Assembly: GCA_033584155.1 (NCBI GenBank)
Contig: CP138355.1
Span: 1,813,501-1,877,500, forward strand
Origin: Candidatus Electrothrix scaldis
GTDB taxonomy: Bacteria > Desulfobacterota > Desulfobulbia > Desulfobulbales > Desulfobulbaceae
DNA: 64,000 nt
Direction of reading: 5' to 3'
Position numbers and translations under genes: made by a program. The number at the start of each line of letters is the position of its first letter. Position 1 is the first letter of the stretch. Under the pieces are notes generated by a model. The model saw only the letters and a program-made list of their open reading frames with translations. It had not been told where the DNA came from and made no database searches. Shown one piece after another: positions 15,080 through 63,276 of the stretch.

Positions 15080-15548
15080 GAATATTCCTCATTTATTGCT
15101 CCTGTATTGGTAAGATGATTAATGAGCAATTCTATAAGTTCTGAATAGCAACATAGTATTTGAAGAAAGATACCCCTCTTAGCAGTCTACCGCAACAACT
15201 TTACCTCCTGTTTCTCGCCCATTACTTCCCGATAGCACCTCTGCTTATCGTACGATAAGCCCTCCCCTCATCACCCATGATCCTTACCAGATATCACTCG
15301 ATATCCTTACAGAGCAACTACGGTCCCTCTGATAGAGCAACCAAGGTCCCTCTTTCAGAGCAACACTGGTTGCTCATATTGAGACACTAAGGTTGCTTAT
15401 ATAGAGCCACCCTGGTTTCTCTCACTCTCCCTCACTCTAAGTACAGTAACAGGAATACTGTTGACAAAGGAGAAACAGCGCTTTAGTCTGCATAAGTCAC
15501 ACCTATGCCCCACCTTTCATTGCCCACCCTTACAACAGGAGAATACAC
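15080..15548. other. 470-bp intergenic region between divergent genes
   Basis: No coding sequence seen. The right half holds the phased 23-bp array (15311-15425). The rest is AT-rich and should contain promoters for both directions, but no convincing -35/-10 pair was picked out. Confidence 0.5.
15311..15425 (+). repeat. Five tandem 23-bp units, each an imperfect palindrome
   Basis: Units begin at 15311, 15334, 15357, 15380 and 15403. Each contains an 18-bp dyad of the form GAGNNAC-N4-GTNNCTC. The third unit is a perfect 7-bp-arm palindrome (GAGCAAC ACTG GTTGCTC). Outer and inner arm pairs are kept in nearly all units while the middle two vary. The array ends 123 bp before the DUF4469/HU-like gene. 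Confidence 0.85.
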
Positions 15549-16625
15549 ATGCCTACTATCCAATGGCGGCCCCAGGTCAATGCCCTGACAAAACCTCTGT
15601 CCTACCGCATCCAGTACGTCCCACGCAATACCGCTGGCTACAGGGAGATGGCCACAGATATCTCCTCTTCCCACCCCATCTACAGCGCAGATCTGGTCCT
15701 GACCCTCGCGCCCCTGATCATGGACTGGATTCAGGAGCGCCTGTGTAACGGCGACCAGGTCACCCTCAAGGATGCCTTTAACTTCCGTACCTCCTTTACC
15801 GGCAAACTAAACCACCCCAATGACCCGCTCCCGGACAAGAAAGACTTTCTCCATGTCCGGGTCACACCCTCCCGGCCCTTTGTCCGGAAGATACGGCAGA
15901 AGGCCCGACTGGAACGGTTACCCATGAATGAGAAGCTCCCTCTGATCACTTCCTGCCAGGACACCGTGCTCAAGCTCCCTGATGTCCTGAACCCGGCCGG
16001 TCTCCTCCTCTTACGCGGGATCAATCTCTTCTTTGATAATGATGAGCCCAAGGCAGGCTGTGTGCTCAGGGGCAGCCAAAGCGGCGAGACCCGCCAGCAC
16101 AGCTATGGCCCCATCTCCAACACCGAAGTCCTGCTCATCCCGGACATCCCGGCCCAGGAGAACCCGTGGAATAACGAGTATCTCCTCAGTCTCACAACCC
16201 ACTACACCGCGCACGGCACCCAGCGCTCTGGCATCTACCGACACAGGCTGCGCACCCCGCTCCAGGTGCCTGGCCTTGGTCAGAGCAATCCGCCGGAGAC
16301 CGGTATCCTCAGCGGCAGCGGGACAACGCCCTTGGTCGTCATTACCGGCGGCACGGTCAGCGCAGACACCCTGGTCCGTATCCAGGCCCTTCTTGACCGG
16401 AGAGCCGACCGGGTCCTTGTCCGTCTCCTGGATATGAAAAGAGAGGGAGCCATAGGTCAGGAGGTAAGCATACAAGAGAACGGGGAATATACCCTGTCAG
16501 GCCCGAATGATTCAGCTGTCAGCAGCTTGGTAATCAAGGTGCAGGACTATGCAGCCCTGAAGAAGTTGATCCGCGATAACTACAGCGGCAATCTGGTGGA
16601 TATTCTGGATGTCACGACAGGATAA
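15549..16625 (+). CDS. DUF4469 / HU-like DNA-binding domain protein
   Basis: 358 residues, ribosome site AGGAG 8 bp upstream of the start. The N-terminal half (about residues 1-125: PLSYRIQYVPRNTAGY, VTLKDAFNFRTSFTGKLN, FLHVRVTPSRPFVRKIRQKA) matches the HU-like DNA-binding domain fused to DUF4469 proteins. The middle (about 145-235) fits the Ig-like DUF4469 region (LRGINLFFDNDEPKAGCVL ... YLLSLTTHYTAHGTQRSGIYRHRL). A further C-terminal domain (about 265-358, VVITGGTVSADTLVRIQALL) is not assigned. Such proteins are thought to bind nucleic acid; the role is unknown. The phased palindrome array lies directly upstream. Confidence 0.75.
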   Translation: MPTIQWRPQVNALTKPLSYRIQYVPRNTAGYREMATDISSSHPIYSADLVLTLAPLIMDWIQERLCNGDQVTLKDAFNFRTSFTGKLNHPNDPLPDKKDFLHVRVTPSRPFVRKIRQKARLERLPMNEKLPLITSCQDTVLKLPDVLNPAGLLLLRGINLFFDNDEPKAGCVLRGSQSGETRQHSYGPISNTEVLLIPDIPAQENPWNNEYLLSLTTHYTAHGTQRSGIYRHRLRTPLQVPGLGQSNPPETGILSGSGTTPLVVITGGTVSADTLVRIQALLDRRADRVLVRLLDMKREGAIGQEVSIQENGEYTLSGPNDSAVSSLVIKVQDYAALKKLIRDNYSGNLVDILDVTTG

Positions 16626-24055: not shown

Positions 24056-24406
24056 ATGTTGACGAGAAGTGTACCGAAGTTGTTGCAGGAAGCAGGAGAA
24101 GTAAAAAAGGCCCTGGAAAAGATCGGGGCCGGGCTGCCGGATGCCATCTCAGCGACTGAGATGGAGACCAGGATCGCTGCTTTGGAAGCAAAGGTCAGTG
24201 CGCTTGATGCGGTCAATGCCGAACGGACGCGGCTGGTGAATGAAAAAGGAGATACCGCCGAGGATCTGAGTGATTATCTGGTTAGGGTTCGGGCTGCGGT
24301 CAAGGGAATCTTTGGGTCGGATTCGTCGGAGTATGATATGGTCGGCGGGACCCGGTCGAGTGAGCGGAAGAAGGCGAAGAGGAAGGATGGGGAGGGGGCG
24401 GAGTAG
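24056..24406 (+). CDS. Hypothetical helical protein downstream of the 21-bp array
   Basis: 116 residues from ATG 24056, set by a strong AGGAGG site. The frame stays open upstream through the repeat array to 23807, so a longer, heptad-repeat (LRxxAxx) form cannot be fully excluded, but it would need a TTG start with no site. Helical N-terminus (VPKLLQEAGEVKKALEKIG), a coiled-coil segment (METRIAALEAKVSALDAVNAERTRL), and a basic/acidic tail (SERKKAKRKDGEGAE). Not recognised. Confidence 0.6.
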   Translation: MLTRSVPKLLQEAGEVKKALEKIGAGLPDAISATEMETRIAALEAKVSALDAVNAERTRLVNEKGDTAEDLSDYLVRVRAAVKGIFGSDSSEYDMVGGTRSSERKKAKRKDGEGAE

Positions 24407-49928: not shown

Positions 49929-49964
49929 TTGAGCTGAGGTGCTTTGGAAGAGAGCGAGGATGGT

Positions 49965-52900
49965 ATGGAACTGACAGTCAACATCATTGAACAGAAGCTG
50001 GTTTGTACTTTTGGTGAGCGACCAGCGGTGTCTGTTAAGCTGACTGATACCCTTATCGCTGAACTGCAAGCCTGCTGTGATCAATACCATGACCTTCAGA
50101 AATCCGACGATACAGCTGCGCTGTTGGCAATCGGCCAGACCCTGTTTGCTCTCATCAACACCCAACCAGCTGAAACCCAATCATGGCTGAATGCAACAGG
50201 TTCACGCTGTTTAACTGTTTTTAGCGATGCGAATCCCACCCCGGAACAGCAACTTCTCCTCCATCTTCCCTGGGAAGTCCTGGCTGAGAATAATCAGTTT
50301 TTCACAGACGATGTGGTGCCCTTTGAAGTGATTCGTCGGGTGGGCCAACCTTCCTCAGCTCCTCTCCAGCCCCGCTATAAAGATTTGACCCTGGCCTTTA
50401 TGGCTGCTGACCCGGGATTGAACAGTGGGCTGAACTATGAAGCTGAAGAACGGGCCATCTTCACTGCGACGAGAAATCATAGAAACCTCAATCTGCTGGT
50501 TGACGAGTCTGGTAATCTTGAGGAATTAAGTCGTCGTCTTTCTGAGGCAGGCCATTGTGATGTGCTCCATCTCTCCTGTCATGGCAGTTTTGATGCTGAA
50601 CGCGGTTTTGTCCTGCATCTGGAAGATGATCACTTTGGACTGATGACGGCAACGGCCCATGACTTCGGTCGGTTACGCCTGCATGAACAGTTCAGCACCC
50701 TGTTTCTTTCAGCCTGTCATAGTGCAAATCACCAGGATAAGCATTCTCTGATGATTGATCTGGCCCGTTTGGGTATTGCCAACATTGTGGGTTGGGATGG
50801 TGCTGTGGCTGATGAGGATGCGACAGTCTTTGCTGAATATTTTTATCAGGCCCTTCAGAGACAGGCAACCGTGCCTGATGCCTGTGCTCGTGCCCGACAG
50901 GCTCTTTTGCAGAAAGGATATACCCATTGGCACCTGGGTCGTTGCTGCCTCAGTGCGCAGGGTGGAGAACCTCTGGTTTCGAGAGCAAAGCCGAAAAGCC
51001 AACGGCGCAAGGGCAGGCCCTGCCATGAATTGTTGGACAAGGAAAAGCAGGAGGTGCGGGTTGCCAGCCGGGAGACCTTTGTGGGCAGGCGGCGACAGAC
51101 CAGGGAAGCCCTTCGGGTCTTTGCGGAACAGGAATATGCAGGGGTGCTGCTCTATGCCATCGGCGGAAGTGGCAAATCAAGCCTGGCAGCACGGATTGCG
51201 GATCGTCTGGAACCGACCTTTAAAGCCGCTGTGCTGTACAGGAATTATCAGCCCTTTGATGTGCTGCAAACTTTGGGGACTGCGGCAAGAGGGACCAAAG
51301 AGGGAGTTGATTTCCCGAAACTCATTGCTCAGATTCAGGAACAACCTGAAGATTTCAAAGACGTTCTGATTGACCTGCTGGAAGGGGTGTTTGATCAGCA
51401 GCGGATTCTGCTGGTTCTGGATGATCTGGAGCAGCATGTCCTGGAAGAACTGGCCGGTGATCGGAAAGAAGTCGAGGTGAAATCGGAGTATCAGGCAACC
51501 TTGACCGCTATTATCGAAGCCTTTGATGAGGCCGATACCGAATCCCGTTTATTGCTCACATCCCGCTATAAATTCGTTGTGCAGAATCGCTTTGGTGTTG
51601 ATGTGGCCGCAAGGTTGAAGGCCATTAATGTGCCAGATATGACAGAGACGGAACTGAAGAAGCACTGGTTGGCCTTGCAGGAGACGGCGCAGGGGGAAAG
51701 GGAGGAAGGTGAGCAGGACAACCAGTATTTGCAACGGATTTATGATGCAGGCAAAGGCAATCCCGGTTTGCAGCATCTGCTTTTTCAGCCTTTGCTCAAA
51801 GGGGAAACCGTTGCGCTTGACCGGGCTTTGGAAAGGATTGGCGATTACCGGGCCACGCAAATGGGGCAGAGTGATTCGTCTGTTGATGATCTGGATAAAT
51901 ACTTGCAGCGTATTGCTCTGGAGGTGTACAGCAGGGCCTTGAGTGATACGGAGTTACAGCTCTTGCGGCTGCTGGCCCTGTTTGATTTTCCTGTGCCTGA
52001 AGAGCTGCTGTTGCAGGCTGGTCCCAAGGTCGGGATTGCTGACCCGGCTGCGGCCTTGCAGCGGTTGGATAATTTCGGGCTGCTGAATCATTGGTCGGAA
52101 AAAGGGCTGGAGGAGCATGTTTCCTGTTATGGTTTGGCTGAGAAGGTGGTGGAGCCGTTGGGGCAGAAGGACAGGAATGATCTGGCGAAGATTTGTGCGC
52201 CGTTGTTGTGGCGGATTTGGTTTAAGGATTTTCTGGATGAGTATGCAGTGCCAGAGACAGAGACGCTCAAAGAGAGTGTTGAGTTTGTTATTTCCCAAGA
52301 TTTTGATTTTCTGCATTATTGCCCTATATGTAAGGCAGGGCAGTTACCGTTGTCCGGCGAGACTGACCAACGGCGTATTGCTGCCCTGCATCGACTTTGC
52401 ATTCGGAACAGTCTGGCGGACTGGGAGAAAAACGGCTTTGAGGAAGATACTTTTATCAATTCTTTAGAACTATCGCTTTCGCTTAATGTTTTTGAAAAAA
52501 TAGCTGCCAGCAGTACGGTATTGGAAAGATTGTCCACGGTACGATTTGAAGAATGGCACAAGTTTTTTTTGGAAGACCTTGTTAAATGGAGAAAGAAAGT
52601 TAAGGAACATCCACAATCTGTTCTTGCAGATATCTTTCAGCAGTTTTCTGGAAATAATGAGCTGGTACGGCAGGCATGCTCTCTGTTATTTGGTGAATTG
52701 GACAGAACTACCGAGAATGTTTTACAGGAAGCTGATTTGACAGATAAAGAAAATCGACTGAACACTGCTCTCCAACTGGCCAAGACAGACAAAGAAAAAG
52801 CAATTGCTTACGGCAACTATGCCATTTTTTTGGCAGGTCAGAAGCAGGATTACCCGGCAGCAGAGGCGATGTACGAACGGGCCGTGGAGGCTGATCCTCA

Positions 52901-54410
52901 ATATGCGAACGCTCTCGGTAACTACGCTTGGTTTCTGCATGATCAGAAGAAAGATTACTCCGCAGCTGAAGCAATGTACCTCCGGGCTTTAGAGGTACAC
53001 CCTGTCTCTGTTAATATTTTTAATAATTATGCTATATTATTGGATGAGCGGAAAAAGGATTATGCGGCGGCTGAAGTCATGTACAAGCGGGCGATTGAGG
53101 CCGAACCAAAGTTTGCGCGAGCTCTCAGCAACTATGCCAATTTTTTAGCTGATCAGAAAAAGGATTATGCGGCGGCTGAAGTCATGTACAAGCGGGCGAT
53201 TGAGGCCGAACCAAAGTTTGCGCGAGCTCTCAGCAACTATGCCAATTTTTTAGCTGATCAGAAGAAGGATTATGCGGCGGCTGAAGTCATGTACAAGCGG
53301 GCGATTGAGGCGAAACCAAAGTTTGCGAGAGCTCTCGGCAACTACGCCAATTTTCTGGCTGATCAGAAGAAGGACTACGCGGCAGCGGAAGCGATGTACG
53401 AGCGGGCTGTGGAGGCTGACCCGAAACAAACATGTAATCTCTGCAAATACTCTGTATTTATAGAGAACAAAAAAGAAGACTACACAGCAGCGAAAGCAAT
53501 GTACCAGCGGGCTGTAGAGGCTGATCCGAATCGTACTTGTGTTGCCTGTAAATATGCTATTTTTTTAGAGAAAAGTGATTGTGTTGCAGCGGAAGCGATG
53601 TACAAGCGGGCCGTGGAGGCCGATCCAAATCATGCGAACACTCTCGGCAGCTACGCCAATTTTCTTGCCGATCAGAAGAAAGATTATCCGGCGGCAGAGG
53701 CGATGTACGAGCGGGCCGTGGAGGCTGACTCGAAGCATGCGAGTAATCTGGGCAACTACGCCTATTTTCTGGGGTATCAGAAAAAGGATTACGCAGCAGC
53801 TCAAGCGATGTACGAGGGGGCCGTGGAGGCCGATCCGAAGCATGCGCGTAATCTTGGCAACTACGCCGTCTTTCTGAAGAATCAGAAGCAGGATTACGTA
53901 GCGGCGGAAGCGATGTACGAGCGGGCCGTGGAGGCTGATCCGAAACATGCGCGTAATCTTGCTGGCTACGCTATTCTTCTGGATGTGTACAAAAAAGATT
54001 ATGCGGCAGCGGAAAAGATGTATCAACGCTCTCTTGAGGCAGCACCGGAGAATGCAAATTGCCTCGGCAACTATACACGACTGCTTTTCCTGGGGGGAGA
54101 TAAAACCAAGGCCGTCGAAATGCTCGAACAGGCAGAGCGGCATCAGGAAAAACATCCCCCGGATTTATCCGTGGAACTAGCCTTCTACCGCTACGCCCAC
54201 TGCCAACCTCAACCCATCGACCCCCTGAAAAAACTCCTGCTGGACGGTGTGCGTTCCCTTGGCTGGAACCTGAAAGACAATGTCCGCCGCGCCGGGCAGG
54301 ACGGCCACCCCAACCCTGCACTGCTGACCGCCCTTGGCAAAGTCATCAGCGACGATGAATCACTAGAAACCTTGGAGCAATTCGAGGAATGGAGTGAAGC
54401 CAATGACTGA
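49965..54410 (+). CDS. CHAT protease - P-loop NTPase - TPR protein
   Basis: 1481 residues from ATG 49965 (GCGAGG site); an in-frame TTG at 49944 is less likely. CHAT domain (about 90-320): HLSCHG with His206 and FLSACHSA with Cys251 form the caspase-like dyad. NACHT/AP-type ATPase: YAIGGSGKSSLAARI (Lys404), RILLVLDDLEQH (Walker B), RLLLTSRYKF (sensor). A helical region is followed by about 13 TPR-like units of 35 residues (about 940-1400, consensus DYAAAEAMYERAVEADPKHARNLGNYA). Units at 53057-53161 and 53162-53266 are identical but for one base. Architecture is that of STAND-type bacterial conflict or cell-suicide sensors: TPR senses, NTPase switches, CHAT cuts. The trigger is unknown. Confidence 0.85.
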   Translation: MELTVNIIEQKLVCTFGERPAVSVKLTDTLIAELQACCDQYHDLQKSDDTAALLAIGQTLFALINTQPAETQSWLNATGSRCLTVFSDANPTPEQQLLLHLPWEVLAENNQFFTDDVVPFEVIRRVGQPSSAPLQPRYKDLTLAFMAADPGLNSGLNYEAEERAIFTATRNHRNLNLLVDESGNLEELSRRLSEAGHCDVLHLSCHGSFDAERGFVLHLEDDHFGLMTATAHDFGRLRLHEQFSTLFLSACHSANHQDKHSLMIDLARLGIANIVGWDGAVADEDATVFAEYFYQALQRQATVPDACARARQALLQKGYTHWHLGRCCLSAQGGEPLVSRAKPKSQRRKGRPCHELLDKEKQEVRVASRETFVGRRRQTREALRVFAEQEYAGVLLYAIGGSGKSSLAARIADRLEPTFKAAVLYRNYQPFDVLQTLGTAARGTKEGVDFPKLIAQIQEQPEDFKDVLIDLLEGVFDQQRILLVLDDLEQHVLEELAGDRKEVEVKSEYQATLTAIIEAFDEADTESRLLLTSRYKFVVQNRFGVDVAARLKAINVPDMTETELKKHWLALQETAQGEREEGEQDNQYLQRIYDAGKGNPGLQHLLFQPLLKGETVALDRALERIGDYRATQMGQSDSSVDDLDKYLQRIALEVYSRALSDTELQLLRLLALFDFPVPEELLLQAGPKVGIADPAAALQRLDNFGLLNHWSEKGLEEHVSCYGLAEKVVEPLGQKDRNDLAKICAPLLWRIWFKDFLDEYAVPETETLKESVEFVISQDFDFLHYCPICKAGQLPLSGETDQRRIAALHRLCIRNSLADWEKNGFEEDTFINSLELSLSLNVFEKIAASSTVLERLSTVRFEEWHKFFLEDLVKWRKKVKEHPQSVLADIFQQFSGNNELVRQACSLLFGELDRTTENVLQEADLTDKENRLNTALQLAKTDKEKAIAYGNYAIFLAGQKQDYPAAEAMYERAVEADPQYANALGNYAWFLHDQKKDYSAAEAMYLRALEVHPVSVNIFNNYAILLDERKKDYAAAEVMYKRAIEAEPKFARALSNYANFLADQKKDYAAAEVMYKRAIEAEPKFARALSNYANFLADQKKDYAAAEVMYKRAIEAKPKFARALGNYANFLADQKKDYAAAEAMYERAVEADPKQTCNLCKYSVFIENKKEDYTAAKAMYQRAVEADPNRTCVACKYAIFLEKSDCVAAEAMYKRAVEADPNHANTLGSYANFLADQKKDYPAAEAMYERAVEADSKHASNLGNYAYFLGYQKKDYAAAQAMYEGAVEADPKHARNLGNYAVFLKNQKQDYVAAEAMYERAVEADPKHARNLAGYAILLDVYKKDYAAAEKMYQRSLEAAPENANCLGNYTRLLFLGGDKTKAVEMLEQAERHQEKHPPDLSVELAFYRYAHCQPQPIDPLKKLLLDGVRSLGWNLKDNVRRAGQDGHPNPALLTALGKVISDDESLETLEQFEEWSEAND

Positions 54411-61671: not shown

Positions 61672-62541
61672 ATGCAACGCCAGTACAGCTATAACAGCAA
61701 CCAGCCGGGCTGCGGCGGTTGTCTTCTGATTTTTGTCCTCCTCCTGCTGGCCACTGGTGGCTGGCAGGCTGTGGGGAACTTTGTTTCCATCCTTATCTAT
61801 TCCGGTCTGTTCGGGGGGCTTGTTCTCTTTGCGGCCTTTTTCGGCTTTACCCGTTATATCCAGAGTCGGGCCGCAGCTTATGCAAAGTCCCAGACCGAGA
61901 GCCATAACCGGTTCGTTTTTCTCCTGGTGAATATCCTGGTCAGCATTGCCAAGGCAGATGGTCATTTCACCAAGTCCGAGTTGCGGACCATGCTCAACTT
62001 TTTCCAGCACAACCTTCATTATAATCAGGACCAGATGTACTGGGTCAAGCAGCTGATTAAGGATGCCCGTGATGAAGATCAGGACCTTGATGCCCTGCTC
62101 ACCGAGTTCCGCAACAGCTTCGCCTATGAACCTCGCCTGATTCTGTTAGAGCTGATCTACCAGATCGTGTTTACGAAAAAACCGGTGAACGAAGGGGAAC
62201 TGAACCTGGCCCGCAAGATCGGTCAATTCCTCGGGATTGCCGAGTATGAACGCCAGAGTATGGAGAGTAAATATCGATACGGGTACAGTTACCAACAACA
62301 GCGGAGGTCTGCCGGTGCCGGTCCGAGCAATGGCTATGCAGAGCAGCAGTATTATGCTGTTCTCGGGGTAGAGCAGGGGGCGGATTTTGCGACCATCAAA
62401 AAAGCCTATCGTAAGCTCTCCATGCAGTATCACCCGGATAAGGTGGCTCATTTAGGTGATGAGTTTAAGGGGGTTGCTGAGGAGAAGATGAAGGAGATCA
62501 ATGCTGCCTATGATCATTTTAGGAAGAAGTTTGGGGAGTAG
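61672..62541 (+). CDS. TerB-DnaJ membrane protein (DjlA-like)
   Basis: 289 residues. One or two N-terminal membrane segments ([39 protein letters not shown]), a TerB-like helical domain ([27 protein letters not shown]), and a C-terminal J domain with HPD ([32 protein letters not shown]). Recruits DnaK to the membrane, as DjlA does. Confidence 0.85.
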
Positions 62542-62602: not shown

Positions 62603-62743
62603 GTCCATTGGATGGATTAAAAAGTCCAATCGTTGGACTTAAAAGTCCACCGGGTGGATCTTTTTATCCAAAGTTTGGATAAACTCATCTAAATTTTAGA
62701 TAAGGTTATCTGAAGTGTTGATCTGGAGATCGAAGTTTTTGTT
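62603..62743 (+). repeat. Seven palindromic units on an exact 21-bp pitch
   Basis: Units start at 62603, 62624, 62645, 62666, 62687, 62708 and 62729. Each is a 15-bp dyad plus a 6-bp mostly A/T spacer: GTCCATTGGATGGAT, GTCCAATCGTTGGAC, GTCCACCGGGTGGAT, ATCCAAAGTTTGGAT, ATCTAAATTTTAGAT, then two weaker units. Units 4 and 5 are perfect 7-bp-arm palindromes; arm changes are compensated (C:G at position 4:12 becomes T:A). Lies 63 bp before the next gene. Confidence 0.92.
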
Positions 62744-62805
62744 TTTTTTGTTGGGAGGGTTGGTGGAGTGATCCAGAAAATGGATTGAACTGTTATGGAG
62801 TTATT

Positions 62806-63276
62806 ATGGATATTGGGGCAATTACATCTGCGCTATCTGGGATTAAGCAAGCAACAGATATCGCAAAGATAATTAAAGATAGTAGCTCGTCTCTGGAAGA
62901 AGCTGAAATAAAATTGAAACTGGCTGACCTTATCAGCGCATTAGCTGATGCTAAGGTTGAAATTGCGAATATTAAGGAGGCTGTCACTGAGAAGGATGAG
63001 GAGATTACGAGACTGAAGGGGGTGATAGAAACCTCTGATAAATTGGTTTGGAGAGCACCTTACTACTTTTTGATTGATGATAATTATGAAGATGGGCCAT
63101 ATTGTCAGAAGTGTTATGATTCACAAAGGAAATTAATTCGACTTCAGTCTCCAGGTGCAAAAGGATATTGGGAATGTAAGGAATGTAGTAATAATTATAA
63201 AGACAAAAATTATGAAGAGCACATATTCACAGCTTCAGTGAGTCGTCGTGATAGATTTTCTGTAAACATAACGTGA
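62806..63276 (+). CDS. Hypothetical coiled-coil protein with zinc-ribbon C-terminus
   Basis: 156 residues from ATG 62806 (GGAG site); an in-frame TTG at 62785 lacks one. Residues 1-75 are helical and end in a coiled coil (LKLADLISALADAKVEIANIKEAVTEKDEEITRLKGVI). Residues 95-140 carry CQKCYD and CKECSN, a zinc-ribbon. This helix-plus-zinc-ribbon layout is seen in small phage- or plasmid-associated proteins. Function unknown. Confidence 0.6.
   Translation: MDIGAITSALSGIKQATDIAKIIKDSSSSLEEAEIKLKLADLISALADAKVEIANIKEAVTEKDEEITRLKGVIETSDKLVWRAPYYFLIDDNYEDGPYCQKCYDSQRKLIRLQSPGAKGYWECKECSNNYKDKNYEEHIFTASVSRRDRFSVNIT

Follow-up and report, generated by a model that had tools for sequence, protein, structure and literature searches.

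The array examined here lies in a 64,000-nucleotide stretch (hereafter the window) of the genome of Candidatus Electrothrix scaldis (labeled G000; 5,089,909 bp, one contig), between genes for a TerB-DnaJ protein and a zinc-ribbon-like protein (Table 1). It is composed of seven palindromic (dyad) units whose starts at 62603, 62624, 62645, 62666, 62687, 62708, and 62729 are separated by exactly 21 bp, as an initial, sequence-only reading of this DNA had reported; units 1–5 are clear dyads and units 6 and 7 are weak. Absent from that account was an extra in-phase copy, ATCCAgaaaaTGGAT, at 62771, i.e. at 62603 plus 8 × 21. Two other places in the window, at 15.3 and 23.8 kb, had been proposed to share the same design. 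Arrays with dyad units repeating every 21 or 23 bp are designated P21 and P23, respectively.

Table 1. Genes, palindrome arrays, and associated elements in the window (positions are those of the window).
Feature	Position	Strand	Remarks
P23 array	15241..15424	.	GAGCAAC..GTTGCTC units and two other palindromes in same phase; upstream of HU-HIG gene
TTGACA (-35 type)	15461..15466	+	at -88 of HU-HIG gene
HU-HIG/DUF4469 gene	15549..16625	+	predicted HU fold and Ig-like part
P21 array TTGC..GCAA	23761..24012	.	252-bp block; further copy at an unrelated locus in G003 and G001
GGTRxSERKK gene	24056..24406	+	linked to P21 array at 23.8 kb
TerB-DnaJ gene	61672..62541	+	array on 3' side in six of eight Electrothrix genomes
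Focal P21 array	62603..62743	.	seven 21-bp units, core RTCCA-N5-TGGAY drifting to ATCTA..TAGAT
Unit 3 and T run	62645..62664	+	only + strand terminator-like site here: 6 pairs, 3 G-C, weak
Isolated in-phase unit ATCCAGAAAATGGAT	62771..62785	.	exactly 8 periods past unit 1; from sequence
Zinc-ribbon-like gene	62806..63276	+	CxxC pairs read from sequence; among eight genomes, only in G000 and G005

A phased-dyad scan of the window over 25 periods (16–40) returned the three places as ranks 1–3, with scores at 4/5/6 units of 21/25/30, 20/24/28, and 19/23/27 against 19/23/25 for the best of five dinucleotide shuffles; the third place, at 23.8 kb, ties with the top shuffle for 4 and 5 units and exceeds it for 6. 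In the scan with 5, 6, and 8 units, the focal array reached z 8.64 (P = 21) and the other two places 8.67 and 7.33, all passing z 7 and the 23.8-kb place standing clearly above the shuffles, whose maximum was z 6.54 (six runs on three of five segments), with none at z ≥ 7. The focal array has the properties by which the class is defined, namely dyad units at exactly 21 or 23 bp and a score above shuffles. It is real, above chance as the sequence-only reading maintained, and a member of a genome-wide class.

A genus-wide class with two fixed periods

The scan covered 1,064 kb of G000 (window included), 200 kb of G003, 400 kb of G005, and 200 kb of G007, the latter three belonging to the same genus as G000, together with 200 kb of G008 from another genus of the same family. 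Across the 1,664 kb of G000, G003, and G005, with periods of 16–40 allowed, there were 23 matches at z ≥ 7: 11 at P21 (two of which are halves of one long G003 array), 11 at P23, and a lone exception at period 26, which is a poly-C/G tract with long C and G runs (G000:C1:3894280). No array reached z ≥ 7 in the 200 kb of G007, and the 200 kb of G008 gave a single match, at P18. A mirror-symmetry control at this threshold gave 38 matches in G000 (31 at period 40, 1 at 21), 17 in G005 (15 at 40), and none in G003, G007, or G008. A search of the genome and its relatives for phased dyads in excess of shuffles had been suggested as a check, and on these samples it came out in favor of the arrays, which appear at z ≥ 7 in three genomes and in none of the six shuffle runs.

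The proposal that the three places in the window represent one recurring design was right in that the multi-genome scan recovered such a class, with two fixed periods; the places are of two kinds, however, P23 with an HU-HIG gene at 15.3 kb and P21 at 23.8 and 62.6 kb. Motifs vary from array to array, and the spacing of the arms within the unit also varies between motif families at a fixed period; among copies of one array, the arms are conserved and the loops and spacers are variable. A literature search returned no account of such phased palindrome arrays.

Two gene families, each linked to one period

Paralogous HU-HIG/DUF4469 genes were found downstream of two among the first four P23 arrays. 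A profile search for this family, counting fragments, returned 106 matches from seven of the eight genomes, with 25 in G005 and 21 in G000 (the latter count comprising fragments and distant relatives); many of the 106 are fragments. Scoring was carried out on 55 of the 106 upstream regions, mostly those of matches with a start, leaving out startless matches, distant relatives, and L201, L225, L226, L230, and L231. A dyad array at z ≥ 5.5 was found in 42 of the 55, 39 at P23 and none at P21, compared with 17 (5 at P23) in the mirror-symmetry control and 8 (1 at P23) in the shuffle control; in G000 alone, 9 of 13 HU-HIG genes have an array. In 54 of the 55 regions the exact sequence TTGACA occurs between -130 and -60, in 40 of these at -86 to -88, and in the 19 regions inspected the arrays are upstream of it. 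Arrays are retained before one HU-HIG ortholog group in five species. The structural model of the protein (mean pLDDT 87.6) matches a putative DNA-binding protein of Bacteroides vulgatus, 4fmr, at E 8.7e-12 and HU/IHF chains with probability 1.0 at E 0.01–0.03, and the protein encoded at 15549 is predicted to have an HU fold; its Pfam matches score under the curated cut-offs. Helical phasing upstream of an HU-fold gene, by position and predicted fold, holds for the HU-HIG-linked P23 arrays and not for the focal array. Outside the genus, HU-HIG matches were found in none of 246 other sampled genomes of the phylum, on no confirmed viral contig, and on no plasmid.

The P21 arrays are linked to GGTRxSERKK (GGTR), a small, expanded, and previously undescribed family that takes its name from its hallmark sequence, includes the gene downstream of the 23.8-kb array, and has 61 matches in seven of eight genomes. 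Forty-four upstream regions were scored, in sets of 29 and 15. Arrays reach z ≥ 5.5 in 36 of them, at P21 in 32 and at P23 in none, and 21 is the best period in 35; the mirror-symmetry control gave 8 of 44 (4 at P21), and the shuffle control 16 of 132 (none at P21). Seven of 11 GGTR genes in G000 alone have an array, and 400 other G000 ORFs, taken as a control, yielded 63 arrays at z ≥ 5.5, of which 8 were at P23 and 7 at P21. As orthologs were counted, the HU-HIG and GGTR copies in these tallies are not all independent. TTGACA at -130 to -60 occurs in 12 of the 44 GGTR regions and in 17 of the 400 control regions.

Modeling of a GGTRxSERKK protein (mean pLDDT 87.8) gave a long hairpin of helices with a basic tail, for which no PDB match was obtained at E ≤ 0.001, and DNA binding by these proteins is therefore a guess. 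Outside the genus, the family was found in none of 394 sampled genomes of the phylum, and a relative, 38% identical, is encoded on a replicon of the cyanobacterium Kovacikia minuta, where no dyad array rises above shuffles at periods 16–69. Four 42-bp direct repeats (2 × 21; L345 2523–2690), which are not dyads, lie ~310–480 bp upstream of the Kovacikia gene; that 42 is twice 21 may be chance. A phage origin was considered and rejected, the focal region and a GGTR protein each matching no phage record.

An orphan array behind terB-dnaJ

The sequence-only reading had presented the focal array as an element upstream of the zinc-ribbon gene. That gene proved incidental and was rejected as the array's partner because it is found only in G000 and G005 of the eight genomes; a second copy in G005 has no array nearby. 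The array instead lies 3' of terB-dnaJ in G000, G005, G003, G002, G001, and G006, species in which the next gene differs, and none was seen behind terB-dnaJ in G004 or G007. These orthologous arrays vary by whole units, with one 21-bp unit more in G000 than in G005, and the G002 copy is worn, its units being visible by eye and in alignment but giving no match at z ≥ 5.5. No GGTRxSERKK or HU-HIG gene adjoins the focal array, which is thus an orphan among the P21 arrays; the GGTR match closest to it in G000 lies at 1837556–1837903, ~38 kb away.

Sixteen orphans were compared with all scored gene-linked arrays. Eight match one above the best of 12 shuffles, and for all eight the gene-linked class is the one predicted by the orphan's own period: 91425, 2741680, and 815589 at P21, and 2794200, 2894744, 4733189, G005_396050, and G005_318246 at P23. 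The matches of 815589 and 318246 are marginal, and five of the eight are within the orphan's own genome. The remaining eight, including all four of the focal ATCCA..TGGAT motif family, match no gene-linked array above shuffles. The focal motif has 16 forward matches in four G000 arrays, against 0 for a reversed-pattern control, and is also present in G001, G003, G005, and G006; none of the 44 GGTR regions contains it three or more times, and the other three G000 arrays that carry it adjoin neither gene family. Beyond the genus, one match with one mismatch was found in each of G008, G029, and G044 (reversed control: one, in G023), and a wider contig collection held 16 stretches, of which 11, with arrays of three units, come from a single PVC MAG; the matches in that collection are uninformative on the class because the motif itself was the search query.

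Array-only copies occur, as for the 23.8-kb array, of which a copy of ~252 bp lies at a second locus in G003 and G001. Several individual loci were also recorded. In G003, the counterpart of the 23.8-kb P21 array with its GGTR gene has an HU-HIG fragment beside it (G003:C1:490137-490379). The P23 array at G000:C1:4332515-4332720, which no HU-HIG gene adjoins, consists of some eight almost identical units (GACACTCGTCAGGATCGAACGCT) and looks like a young expansion. At G005:C1:318004-318440, a pair of unlike P23 arrays occur next to each other, and no HU-HIG gene adjoins either. In the PVC-group MAG, the 11 stretches carry three GTCCA-N5-TGGAC units at 21 bp and have unrelated flanks (L050, L053-L056, L058-L060, L062-L064), and an Odoribacteraceae contig (L049, 5250-5543) has ~14 near-identical 21-bp units, GTCCArTCATyGGACGAAGTC, in a row.

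Covariation of the palindrome arms

It had further been claimed that the palindrome rather than the sequence is kept, with both arms changing together. In the focal array, Watson–Crick pairs number 37 against 28.1 expected at k = 5 (z 3.7), 41 against 32.1 at k = 6 (z 3.3), and 39 against 36.4 at k = 7 (z 0.9). An initial test gave class-wide covariation at z 4–10, which was rejected as an artefact: wrong periods gave z 16–21 and unused pairs z 1.2 and 0.5, and choosing the register by pairing builds covariation in. Tests for palindrome covariation must avoid that choice, and in the unbiased test the register was picked from column frequencies alone. The sets were drawn from 55 P23 and 44 P21 regions, the remainder being dropped for weak symmetry, and gave z -1.8 (44 arrays, k = 4) and -2.4 (41 arrays, k = 5) for P23 and -2.1 (42 arrays, k = 4) and -1.4 (41 arrays, k = 5) for P21, with a test that is slightly negative by itself (wrong periods, z -0.4 to -2.4). 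The six orthologous arrays behind terB-dnaJ, focal array included, gave z +1.4 at k = 4 and +3.5 at k = 5, and six orphans pooled, again with the focal array, z +1.9.

The claim of matched changes consequently survives for the focal array at k = 5 and 6, not at 7, and fails for the gene-linked P21 and P23 arrays. Since within-unit covariation is absent from them, the arms of the gene-linked arrays are kept as sequence, array by array. Arms kept in this way fit protein-read sites better than selection for pairing, and the focal array is the exception.

Rows of protein sites on DNA and alternative explanations

The explanation we favor, with about an even chance of being right, is that the arrays constitute an Electrothrix class of 21- and 23-bp phased dyads that form rows of sites on DNA for dimeric proteins, probably the linked paralogs, whose binding we infer. 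Its observed basis comprises the two periods and their linkage to separate gene families, the position of the arrays upstream of genes and, for P23, before a TTGACA promoter, the conserved arms, the gain and loss of units, and the array-only copies. Each array would offer a dimeric DNA-binding protein a row of predicted sites on which it loads cooperatively along the helix. In the simplest case, the binder would be the linked paralog, controlling its own gene, and the orphan arrays, the focal one included, would be scattered copies, either serving as additional sites of that kind or persisting as relics. If the sites are read by sequence, no within-unit covariation is expected, as is the case in the gene-linked arrays. 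The sequence-only reading had offered two mechanisms, dimer sites on one face of the helix or hairpins in the transcript, and the former is the better supported, by inference.

Several findings run counter to dimer sites. The focal array and the three arrays of the same motif are beside neither family and match no gene-linked array, and the focal covariation is not something that a row of sequence-read sites requires. One dimer footprint does not explain why arm spacing varies at a constant period, and 23 bp is a non-integral number of helical turns. An array at z ≥ 5.5 with the expected period is missing from 12 of 44 GGTR and 16 of 55 HU-HIG regions, and TTGACA is present in just the dozen GGTR regions counted above.

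It is tempting, if decidedly speculative, to suppose that these are two lineage-expanded families of DNA-architectural proteins of multicellular cable bacteria, each with its own lattice constant (23 bp for HU-HIG, 21 bp for GGTRxSERKK), whose paralogs, with private, many times repeated palindromes before their own promoters and satellite arrays elsewhere, might make up dozens of orthogonal pairs serving as private chromatin domains or switches. Were the linkage regulatory, cable bacteria would have many paralogous DNA-binding proteins, each with private repeated target arrays. Gene regulation in cable bacteria is little known. These bacteria are described as unculturable (PMC10926707). As the arrays point to a candidate target for every paralog ahead of any experiment, the specificity of the HU-fold family becomes directly testable.

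The focal array may have gained, or retained, a role in RNA. In the corresponding alternative, which we judge unlikely, the 3' end of the terB-dnaJ transcript would fold into a row of small hairpins, or into a single long compound stem, and thereby terminate or protect the transcript. The array covaries and lies directly behind the terB-dnaJ stop codon in six species. Both strands outfold their shuffles (+ strand, -66.9 against -51.8 kcal/mol, z -3.96; - strand, -56.2 against -32.6, z -5.9) and each carries one weak terminator-like unit, so that an RNA role of the focal array is possible; however, the better folding z-score belongs to the antisense strand, the minimum free energy structure is a nested compound stem rather than a hairpin string, and Rfam 15 gave 0 matches above the gathering score in the window. 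Mismatches of the G.T kind outnumber A.C mismatches 113 to 52 in the assumed gene direction across 15 P21 arrays (six being focal orthologs, and the direction of three being unknown), with the reverse, 99 to 145, in P23. Strand-biased C-to-T mutation would give a G.T excess too, though, and the register for this count was picked by pairing. The P23 arrays and part of the gene-linked P21 arrays, moreover, sit upstream of a promoter-like TTGACA.

The arrays might alternatively be selfish or neutral DNA without function, grown and shrunk by slippage in steps of 21 or 23 bp and kept palindromic by hairpin-templated repair or copying. The gain and loss of whole units between species, as in the extra unit of G000 relative to G005, the weak end units, the near-identical units of some arrays (G000 4332515, G003 610k), and the array-only copies at other loci all accord with such a process. 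We nonetheless think it an improbable account of the class, as it leaves unexplained both the existence of two fixed periods, with a separate gene family for each, and the retention of arrays before one HU-HIG ortholog group in five species.

Dispersal of REP-like mobile palindromes by a RAYT/Y1 transposase has considerably less to recommend it and is very improbable. The extragenic palindromes are indeed dispersed, with block copies at two loci, and among four Y1_Tnp loci read in G000 (5 found) one has a P21 array behind the gene: a TTGC..GCAA-type array at G000:C1:815589-815798, ~150–170 bp behind a Y1-type transposase gene (815951-816403, - strand). The other three loci read (L298-L300) have no P21 or P23 array at z ≥ 5.5, however, 62603–62743 contains no GTAG or CGTC tag, nor a complement of either, and the arrays differ from each other in sequence while the period is fixed. 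Finally, open 7-residue-repeat frames in several P21 arrays prompted the idea that the 21-bp repeats encode the heptads of a small amphipathic protein, which was rejected as next to impossible on evidence from three loci. Three stops interrupt the heptad frame at the focal array, and no ORF of at least 60 aa spans that array; the G005 ortholog of the 3896k array contains a TAG; and substitutions by codon position number 16/28/21 in the 23.8-kb array, with no third-position excess. P23 arrays cannot be read as heptads at all. Annotators should be aware that 7-residue-repeat ORFs inside P21 arrays need not be genes.

Comparison with known repeats and proteins

Rows of ~20-bp sites, phased on the helix and upstream of a gene for a DNA-binding protein, are a feature of iterons and multi-operator arrays, as in plasmid rep iterons and omega-type repeat operators. 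The gene-linked Electrothrix arrays resemble these systems in presenting a helix-phased row of predicted sites of about that size upstream of a gene for a putative DNA-binding protein. The class differs in that the units are dyads with array-specific sequence and a period of exactly 21 or 23 according to the gene family, and in the many chromosomal paralogs and the orphan arrays, binding here being putative. The HU-HIG proteins likewise share with known HU-HIG/DUF4469 proteins (Pfam PF18291, PF14734, PF14848; PDB 4fmr, Bacteroides vulgatus) an HU-like fold, here predicted, and an Ig-like part, but are expanded in one genus of the Desulfobulbaceae, in which most of the genes each have their own 23-bp palindrome array.

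REP/BIME palindromes are short, extragenic, clustered, and often located behind genes (PMC3733652), and the Electrothrix arrays are likewise short, clustered, extragenic palindromes often found behind genes. In contrast to REP/BIME elements, the focal array lacks the GTAG/CGTC tag, and the Electrothrix arrays have no common sequence, are strictly phased, and, among the four Y1_Tnp loci read, have a RAYT gene beside one only. CRISPR arrays also consist of regular repeats of palindromic character, yet the arms of the Electrothrix arrays vary by array and no repeat is common to them. A CRISPR-like array is in fact present at G000:C1:4219429-4220186, with palindromic repeats in steps of 33–34 bp and a lower score, z 6.6–6.7, in the same dyad scan. 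Within the window, a further set of tandem repeats, eleven of 105 bp each at 52811–53959, lies within an ORF of 1488 aa (49944–54410).
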